From positions 1-60,723 of the forward strand of contig NZ_NHYN01000011.1 in assembly GCF_003288845.1 (NCBI RefSeq): 60,723 nt of DNA, written 5' to 3'. Shown here one piece after another: positions 15,137 through 17,403 of the stretch (position 1 is the first letter of the stretch; the number at the start of each line of letters is the position of its first letter). A program made the translations under genes and the position numbers. The notes under the pieces were generated by a model that searched no databases, was not told the origin of the DNA, and saw only the letters and a program-made list of their open reading frames with translations. The DNA comes from Helicobacter monodelphidis (GTDB taxonomy: Bacteria > Campylobacterota > Campylobacteria > Campylobacterales > Helicobacteraceae).

Positions 15137-15793
15137 CTACTTTTTTACCCATTCTTGAATTTTTTTGACAGCAGATAAAGCATTTTGAGTAATATTTGGT
15201 GTTAATTTTTGTAAATCCTCCAAAGAAGAATAACCACTCAACACAGCAATGGATTCAATATTTGCATTTTTTGCAGCAAGAATATCATAAGGCGTATCCC
15301 CAATCATAAAAATGCGCCTATATTGACCACCACTCTCTTGAATCGCCTTTAATATTGGCTCTTTACTTGGTTTTGGTTCTTTTGTATCATCGCGCCCAAC
15401 AACGCAACTAAAGCAATGCAAAACACCAAACCGTTGCAATAACCTTTCGGAAGAGGCATGAACTTTCGTTGTTACAACCGCCAAACGTGCAATTTTTGAA
15501 GCTTCCATAATCGCCTCATATGCCGTTGGAAGCAATGAAGTCTGTTCTAGAGAAATTTTCCTATAATGCATTTTGTAAGACTGAATATAACTTCCTATCT
15601 CTGATTGAGAAACACCATTTTTTAAAAACATCTCCTCCAATGTCCCACCAATCAGAGCAACAACCCTCTCCCGTTGTGGAAGTCTTTGTCCATGTTTCCT
15701 AAACGCAACACAAAAACCCTCATAAATAGCATTTGCTGAGTCAATTAATGTCCCATCCAAATCAAAAAAAATGCCTATATCAGATTCCAGCAT
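15137..15793 (-). CDS. gph: HAD-family phosphatase, phosphoglycolate phosphatase type
   Basis: The 218-residue protein has HAD motif I FDLDGTLIDS (nucleophile Asp11, acid Asp13), motif II near VVTTK (residue about 108), a Lys near 137 (KEPKPSKEP), and motif IV GDTPYD near 164. It probably clears 2-phosphoglycolate, but HAD substrate choice cannot be read from sequence. Its ATG overlaps the end of an upstream micro-ORF by 14 bases, so translation of the two may be linked. Confidence 0.82.
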   Translation of the reverse strand: MLESDIGIFFDLDGTLIDSANAIYEGFCVAFRKHGQRLPQRERVVALIGGTLEEMFLKNGVSQSEIGSYIQSYKMHYRKISLEQTSLLPTAYEAIMEASKIARLAVVTTKVHASSERLLQRFGVLHCFSCVVGRDDTKEPKPSKEPILKAIQESGGQYRRIFMIGDTPYDILAAKNANIESIAVLSGYSSLEDLQKLTPNITQNALSAVKKIQEWVKK

Positions 15794-15887
15794 AGATATA
15801 AACGACAGACACTAATACCATACCTAGCACAAAAAGCCCCAGTAAAAATAGGGTGCCGCCCCCCCCCTCTTTGATTTCTTTTTTCAT
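15780..15887 (-). CDS. 35-residue single-span membrane micro-protein with an in-frame G9 tract
   Basis: ATG at 15887 (or 15893, two codons earlier) is preceded by AAGGAA, spaced 7 bases to 15887. The product begins MKKEIKEGGGGT and then has one hydrophobic span of about 20 residues (LFLLGLFVLGMVLVSVVYIY), ending AGI. The four Gly codons include nine consecutive G on the coding strand (15859-15867). Gain or loss of one G would destroy the frame, as at phase-variable loci in Helicobacter and Campylobacter. It overlaps the gph start. I do not recognise the family. Confidence 0.6.
   Translation of the reverse strand: MKKEIKEGGGGTLFLLGLFVLGMVLVSVVYIYAGI
15859..15867. repeat. Homopolymeric C9 tract (G9 on the coding strand)
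   Basis: Nine C in a row on the plus strand is the longest G/C homopolymer in the window. It lies inside the micro-ORF at 15780-15887. Runs of this length are prone to slipped-strand change in Campylobacterota. Confidence 0.85.
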
Positions 15888-15893
15888 CGTCAT

Positions 15894-16197
15894 TTCCTTG
15901 TTTCTATCTTCTCAAACTTTATTTTATTGCTATTCTACTTCAAAAGAGTTTAAAAACTTGAGTGTGTTTTTATTTGTAAAGTAAATCCACCAAATCCCTT
16001 AAGCTTTCTTTTTTATCACATAATCCATACCCCATTTCATACTTTTTTACAGTAAAATTATATCTTCGTATAATTATCGTATTTATTATTGAGCCACTCC
16101 CAACTTTTGATATTCTCTGTAAGCCAATCACATTTCAAGAGATCATTACATTGAAAATCCCAAAAAAGTAGTATATGAATTACAGTCACAAAAATGG
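15894..16197. other. 304-base gap with a weak 53-codon open frame
   Basis: The gap lies between the micro-ORF and the ape1 candidate. It holds the -10 candidate at 15932-15937. It also holds a stop-free minus-strand stretch from GTG 16131 to TAA 15970, whose predicted end (EMGYGLCDKKESLRDLVDLLYK, split here as EMGYGLCDKKE and SLRDLVDLLYK) looks protein-like. No ribosome site is evident, so this could be a gene remnant or chance. No clear terminator for ape1 was seen. Confidence 0.35.
15932..15937 (-). promoter_or_regulatory. Possible -10 for the micro-ORF and gph
   Basis: TAGAAT on the minus strand lies 44 bases before the ATG at 15887. It gives a short leader with the AAGGAA ribosome site. 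Confidence 0.4.
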
Positions 16198-17403
16198 CTA
16201 CTCGTGTGAGGGAGTAAAGATTGTTGCCTGAATTTCTTGAAAAAGTTTGCGGGCGATAAAGCGGTAACCGAGCGGTGTAAGATGTAAATCTTTCTTTGAA
16301 AGATTTTTTGCAATCCACATTCCTTTTCCTCCGCTATTTTCCATAAATTCGTGCGTATTAAATAATAAAATATTTTCTTTTTTTGCAAATTCTTCATAAG
16401 CTACTTGTGCCGAAAAAAAATTTTCAACAATATAAAATCTCCCTCTTGTCCTTGTTTTTGTTACACTAGGAGGCGTAATAAGCAAAATTGCTGCATTAGG
16501 TTGCACATCTTTCAAGGTACGAATAAGTTGCCGAATATTGCTTAGCATTTTTTCGTGTGGAAGCTCTCCTATCACATCATTTGCACCATAAGCAATAATA
16601 AATAAGTCGTATTGTATTTCGTATAATTCACGCTTAAAAACATCCTGATTCCAATGTTGCCATATATTAGAGCTTGCACCATTGATTCCTAATGTATCAA
16701 TAATATTATCTTCTGGGGATTGTGTAATAAAATAGCCACCCAAAGCAACCTCTTTTTGTATGGCAGTAATTTTAATCGGGAATTCAAGATGATAGGTTGC
16801 AAAACTCCAAGAATTTGGGGTGGCAGAACGCAATATTCCACCATCATAATTTTTATCTTGTACAATAAAGGCAGGGGAAGCATTTGGAGAACGAAAAACA
16901 ATCATCACTTCTTGTTTTTGCTTTAATTCCTGCTTAAGTTTTAGTTCTACCTTTGCTTGAGATTTCTCTGCTTTTGCGATAATACCGCCGAGCGGATAAT
17001 CTTCTTTTCTGTAACGTAAAGAGTTAAGAATTTTAAAATGCGTTGAAGAGTAATCGACAAGCATATTTTGCTGATATTTAGGTTGCAATGGATAAATAAA
17101 ACCGGGCGAATCGGCATCTTTAAAAATCAAGGAACGCAATTCATCGGAGAAAAAATCTCCAGCCATATGTGAATCTCCAAAAACTCTAATCTTGAAATTC
17201 TTTCTCTCCATTAATTTCTTGGCAATTTTATATAAATCTGCCTCATTATTATTTTTAAGAAATTGTCCACGATATAAAATACGATCTAGCGGTTCTTCAT
17301 AGGTGCTGATTCTTGTTTGTTGTTCCTCTGTGAAATGGCATGAAGTAAAAAATAATATAAAAAATAAAAAATAAAATTTAGTAATTTTATTTTGTTTTTT
17401 CAT
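16198..17403 (-). CDS. ape1: SGNH-family lipoprotein, likely peptidoglycan O-acetylesterase Ape1
   Basis: The 401-residue protein has a lipoprotein signal ending FFTSC (Cys22). It carries SGNH blocks GDSH (76-79, nucleophile Ser78), a Gly block near 239-242, GANDV (273-277), and DLHLTP with Asp372 and His374. The long stretch between blocks I and II (about 100-235) fits the beta-rich insert of Ape1 proteins. Ape1 removes O-acetyl groups from MurNAc so that lytic transglycosylases can act. It is third in a patA-patB-ape1 set, overlapping the preceding gene by 17 bases. Which SGNH gene is esterase and which transferase rests on this insert. Confidence 0.7.
   Translation of the reverse strand: MKKQNKITKFYFLFFILFFTSCHFTEEQQTRISTYEEPLDRILYRGQFLKNNNEADLYKIAKKLMERKNFKIRVFGDSHMAGDFFSDELRSLIFKDADSPGFIYPLQPKYQQNMLVDYSSTHFKILNSLRYRKEDYPLGGIIAKAEKSQAKVELKLKQELKQKQEVMIVFRSPNASPAFIVQDKNYDGGILRSATPNSWSFATYHLEFPIKITAIQKEVALGGYFITQSPEDNIIDTLGINGASSNIWQHWNQDVFKRELYEIQYDLFIIAYGANDVIGELPHEKMLSNIRQLIRTLKDVQPNAAILLITPPSVTKTRTRGRFYIVENFFSAQVAYEEFAKKENILLFNTHEFMENSGGKGMWIAKNLSKKDLHLTPLGYRFIARKLFQEIQATIFTPSHE

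Follow-up and report, generated by a model that had tools for sequence, protein, structure and literature searches.

The window analysed here is a stretch of 60,723 nucleotides from Helicobacter monodelphidis (assembly GCF_003288845.1, contig NZ_NHYN01000011.1, positions 1 to 60,723), and it carries on its minus strand, from 15893 to 15780, a short open reading frame with a ribosome site and the product MKKEIKEGGGGTLFLLGLFVLGMVLVSVVYIYAGI (Table 1). Read from its first ATG at 15893, this small ORF comprises 37 codons plus the stop codon at 15780-15782 and translates to MTMKKEIKEGGGGTLFLLGLFVLGMVLVSVVYIYAGI, and read from the second ATG at 15887 it comprises 35. The second ATG is likely to be the true start, with ATG 15893 as the alternative, since the homologues described below start with MKK and the motif AAGGAA is better spaced ahead of 15887. 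Upstream on the same strand lie, in this order, genes for an MBOAT acyltransferase, a DUF459/GDSL protein and an Ape1-type esterase, the last of which is followed by a gap of about 300 bases and then by the small gene; gph and pyruvate:acceptor oxidoreductase (por) genes come next. The cluster looks like a peptidoglycan O-acetylation cluster, in which we infer the PatA/PatB assignments. Within the gap, at 16046-16074 on the plus strand, there is also a strong promoter-like site (TTTACA, 17, TATAAT; 11/12), which faces the convergent ape1-like gene and points into its 3' end.

Table 1. Features of the small-gene/gph locus, in positions of the window.
Feature	Position	Strand	Evidence
Small membrane-protein gene, 35 aa	15780..15887	-	ORF translation; homologues in three of four other genomes of the genus
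Ribosome site of the small ORF, AACAAGGAA	15888..15907	-	-4.9 kcal/mol; window median -4.7 to -4.9
Predicted transmembrane helix and C-terminus, TLFLLGLFVLGMVLVSVVYIYAGI	15783..15854	-	AlphaFold2 helix; hydropathy 2.9 over 17 residues
G9 tract, codons 7-10 (GAG GGG GGG GGC), linker before the span	15859..15867	-	Absent from the three homologues
Overlap of small-ORF end and gph start, 14 bases	15780..15793	-	ORF coordinates
HAD-family phosphatase gene 'gph', downstream, possibly partly translated by coupling	15137..15793	-	PF13419, 8.5e-38
ape1-like peptidoglycan O-acetylesterase gene, next upstream of the small ORF both here and in two relatives	16198..17403	-	PF22753 Ape1_N, 9e-16

The original prediction, made from the sequence of the window, had described a micro-ORF with a ribosome site that encodes a single-span membrane peptide, and both parts of this description were borne out: the frame is present behind a site of -4.9 kcal/mol, and AlphaFold2, run on the single sequence, predicted one helix across residues 12-36 of the 37-aa form (mean pLDDT 84). 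We picture the small protein as a short charged N-terminus, probably cytoplasmic, followed by a Gly-rich linker and one helix, and its placement in the inner membrane, as part of the overall reading that we favour below, seems reasonably likely. A gene of 35 aa would probably be missed by annotation, and searches of Pfam, NCBIfam, PDB sequences and Rfam returned no credible match to the small ORF. Minus-strand positions 15837-15853 contain a terminator-like hairpin with 5 pairs only.

A search of 121 family genomes identified homologues at E values of 2e-8 to 1.4e-7 in three genomes of the same genus (G116, G117 and G118), that is, in three of its four other genomes, the fourth of which is 58% complete. 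The three proteins (MKKTTKEGASSTLFLLGVLIIGIALIVVVYMYAPV, MKKEVNNGGNSVLFLLGVLILGIGLIAVVYMYSPT and MKKEINNGGNSVLFLLGVLIIGIGLIVVVYMYSPV) are each 35 aa long, share 51-54% identity with the product of the small ORF and align with it free of gaps across the shared 35 residues. Ribosome sites are present ahead of the small gene in all four species, and differences between the genes are concentrated at the third codon position (positions 1/2/3: 5, 6 and 21 between G117 and G118; 3, 2 and 8 between G116 and G118). Since homologues occur in three congeneric genomes, the frame is not a chance one, and we conclude from these comparisons that the small ORF is a real gene. The shortness of the ORF and the lack of a Pfam, NCBIfam or PDB-sequence match could speak for a chance ORF without product, but the homologues of three species, with their codon-position bias and ribosome sites, already contradict this reading, to which we assign a negligible probability. 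A profile built from the four members retrieved no credible further member from the 121 family genomes or from 399 order genomes, and no homologue was found downstream of ape1 in other Helicobacteraceae. Matches in other genera were weak (E about 0.002 to 0.6) and were discarded, most of them being fragments of longer or interrupted frames and short partial alignments. Among the genomes searched, the family is confined to this genus.

The size of the protein, its single span and its charged N-terminus would also suit a type I toxin-like membrane peptide. We consider this very improbable, given that the leader of the small ORF is not unusually structured (its predicted RNA structure is no better than that of shuffles, with a fold z-score of +0.55), that Rfam gave no match and that the search for a promoter-like site that could drive an antisense RNA against the small ORF gave none; the gene is, moreover, present in a single copy and has evolved under codon constraint.

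The nine G of the linker codons, which read as a C run on the plus strand, lie in frame as originally described and form the sole run of at least 8 G in the window, for which a Markov model predicts about 0.04 runs of at least 9 G. The tract is longer than the cut-off of 7 G for phase-variable tracts, which we took from PMC6321876, and it lies within the real coding frame of a conserved ORF. Where the window reads GAG GGG GGG GGC GGC, homologues read GAA GGG GCG AGC AGT and AAT GGC GGG AAT AGC, and no homologue has a G run of more than 4 at this position. Judged from these sequences, either this lineage gained the tract or the others lost it, apparently through base substitutions that left the length as it was. 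Retention of a tract in homologues, a feature that supports but does not strictly define a phase-variable gene, was thus seen in none of the three. The expectation that a conserved span would be accompanied by a variable G length held only as far as the span, which the relatives possess; they are free of the tract.

Frame prediction also agrees with the proposal that one-base slippage would switch the frame. The protein is preserved at G6, G9 and G12. At G8 the product is 20 aa long and lacks the span (20-21 aa for G8 or G11), and its stop codon falls ahead of gph, with 31 positions from its last base to the A of the start codon of gph and so 30 nt between them. At G10 the frame yields 37 aa of a different sequence (37-38 aa for G10 or G13) and stops 19 bases inside gph. 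A change of a single base in either direction is therefore predicted to destroy the span, to turn the product OFF and to shift the stop relative to gph.

The genome as a whole contains 26 tracts of at least 8 G, with 5, 4, 6, 4, 3 and 4 tracts at lengths 8 to 13, compared to about 7 expected under a first-order model of the window; for tracts of at least 9 G, 21 were counted and about 1.4 expected. Many of the long tracts are found in glycan-like, restriction-modification-like, methyltransferase-like and promoter-like contexts, the product types being judged by eye. Two islands form dense, apparently phase-variable clusters, with 4 poly-G tracts in G000:C40:19604-27082 (L137) and 7 in G000:C44:25597-38350 (L140); both carry apparent glycan or nucleotide-sugar genes, and their tracts sit at the starts, at the ends and inside of frames. 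MutL was not detected in this genome, and all 14 control genomes gave a match. By all indirect signs, the genome has a poly-G phasome, and the small gene thus belongs to a genome with a wider set of tracts and without detectable MutL. Published data on Helicobacter and Campylobacter tracts make slippage at the small gene likely: G9 tracts of H. canadensis were found as G8-10 and G7-11 in 454 reads, on which the authors were cautious (PMC2823697), and in C. jejuni tracts of G8 and G11 switch at frequencies of 0.004 and 0.02, with the rate governed by repeat number and not by flanking sequence (PMC4965091).

It is possible, though we rate it as unlikely, that the protein of this real gene is made constitutively and that the G9 came about only by chance among the Gly codons of the linker, where rare slippage is merely deleterious. 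G8 tracts occur at chance level in this genome (5 seen and about 5.6 expected), and G9 is the shortest class that exceeds it, with 4 tracts seen and about 1.1 expected by chance; given the level of the G8 tracts and the quarter or so of the G9 tracts expected by chance, a share of about a quarter for this reading seems fair. It also fits that the homologues differ at the tract by substitution alone, without any change in length, and that another G9 of the genome falls within an NGGG motif that looks conserved. On the other hand, G9 tracts vary in length in related organisms (PMC2823697; PMC4965091), MutL was not found, and the peptide EGGG, encoded with the codon usage of the window, would yield a run of G9 only 0.7% of the time. 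The G9 in the NGGG motif (G000:C11:2909-2917; L133:1510-1518) belongs to an intact sodium:neurotransmitter-symporter-like ORF and could serve as a control for the stability of G9 in a constrained motif.

The predicted overlap of 14 bases with gph was recovered as well, with the stop codon of the small ORF inside 15137-15793. The gph product matches HAD_2 but scores below the phosphoglycolate-phosphatase equivalog cut-offs, and for this reason its substrate is not fixed as phosphoglycolate. With -1.8 kcal/mol, compared to -4.9 for the small ORF, the gph ribosome site is weak, so that the two genes overlap without a strong internal ribosome site, as expected of a coupled pair. This fits translational coupling without proving it, since 10 of the 52 long ORFs of the window have a site as weak as that of gph. 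Conservation of the arrangement, which would also mark a coupled pair, was seen in no relative. Homologues of gph are present in 66 of the 121 family genomes, and none of the inspected gph loci of the family and of Sulfurovum-type relatives is preceded by this small gene. The short ORFs that do precede gph at these loci were rejected as homologues, as none resembles the small ORF. Instead, the small gene lies about 70 bases after the Ape1-type gene and before a convergent gene in G116 and G118, and in G117 it stands alone, away from ape1, flanked by a methyltransferase-like gene and a gene for an apparent zinc-binding transporter component. Of the idea that the frame is conserved upstream of gph, what stood is the conservation of the protein in three of four other genomes of the genus; its location is elsewhere in these, never ahead of gph. 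Among the genomes compared, the overlap is a feature of this species only, and the best reading is that any coupling of the two genes is incidental and local to it.

In three congeneric genomes (G118, G116 and G119), gph is preceded by another, different small ORF with a single span, which overlaps the gph start codon by ATGA: in G118 it encodes 30 aa, MTDTLLLFAIVNVPAFMLLACIIYMYKKFS (L020; G118:C47:4812-4901), and it occurs also in G116 (L019/L178; G116:C56:10415-10498) and in G119 (L018, a reversed-locus start at which the ORF end alone was seen). The genome of the window, G117 and the remaining genomes of the family yielded no credible copy. It is odd that one genus should have two small membrane ORFs, unrelated to each other, on the start of gph. 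These ATGA overlaps, together with the 14-base overlap, the weak gph ribosome site and a tract that shifts the stop, would suit a small ORF that acts mainly as a cis-acting leader, the translation of which sets the level of gph. We nevertheless find this improbable, because the peptide is conserved where gph is not adjacent, which argues for action in trans at least in the relatives.

Taken together, we favour, with moderate confidence, the reading that the locus holds a real gene for an inner-membrane protein of 35 residues, that slippage of its G9 tract switches this protein and that the overlap with gph is possibly affected. The small protein would then probably be phase-variable. In this species the linker codons would have become an unbroken G9, and replication slippage would leave the protein OFF at G8 and G10 and ON at G6, G9 and G12. 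As the small gene lies directly on the gph start, and as gph's own ribosome site is weak, translation at G8 would stop 30 nt short of gph and the level of the phosphatase would probably fall, with the overlap kept at G10. Against this reading we count that the relatives retain the protein without the tract, that the product is unlike the surface-modifying targets on which phase variation usually acts and that the gph overlap occurs in this species only. In a stronger version, one tract would govern two products, with the microprotein ON only at G9 (or G6, G12) and the phosphatase down only at G8 or G11. We regard this as doubtful; if true, a single tract would set a unit of two genes to any of three states of expression.

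The small gene shares with phasome genes of Helicobacter and Campylobacter, such as HCAN_0659 of H. canadensis (G9) and cj1139 of C. jejuni (G8), a G tract in frame, predicted ON/OFF slippage by one base, an AT-rich genome and, here, a lack of detected MutL. It differs from them in that the target is a membrane protein of 35 aa and not a surface-modifying enzyme, that the tract is part of the codons for the protein's linker and a shifted stop could reach the next gene, and that variation in length is, here, a prediction. An effect of tract length on the next gene would resemble HCAN_0660/0661, where a poly-G shift could fuse the CDS with the next; at the small gene, only a change in coupling is possible (PMC2823697).

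Single-span small proteins generally support larger membrane complexes, and most of the characterised ones bind a larger membrane protein, as the small protein most likely does too. In Campylobacter, an example is CioY (34 aa) with CioA; conserved Trp, Pro and Tyr residues mark the small subunit (PMC11955535). The small protein is like CioY, of the C. jejuni CioAB oxidase, and CydX in its size, its single span and in being missed by annotation, but unlike them it has no Trp and is not encoded beside cioAB. An oxidase subunit of the CioY/CydX type was rejected, because Trp is missing from all four homologues and the genes beside the small ORF are ape1-like, gph and por instead of cioAB or cydAB. 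That the small gene follows ape1 in three of the four species puts forward cell-wall O-acetylation proteins (PatA/PatB/Ape1 type) as the first candidate partners; this is a lead only, limited by the gene of G117, which is away from ape1.

Even if no slippage occurs, the small-protein family is new to the libraries searched here. Because catalogues of phase-variable genes are built largely on annotated genes, a slippery tract can escape notice when the gene that contains it is very small. If a case were confirmed, small membrane proteins would join the known targets of phase variation, and one tract would be seen to tune a neighbouring enzyme via translational coupling.
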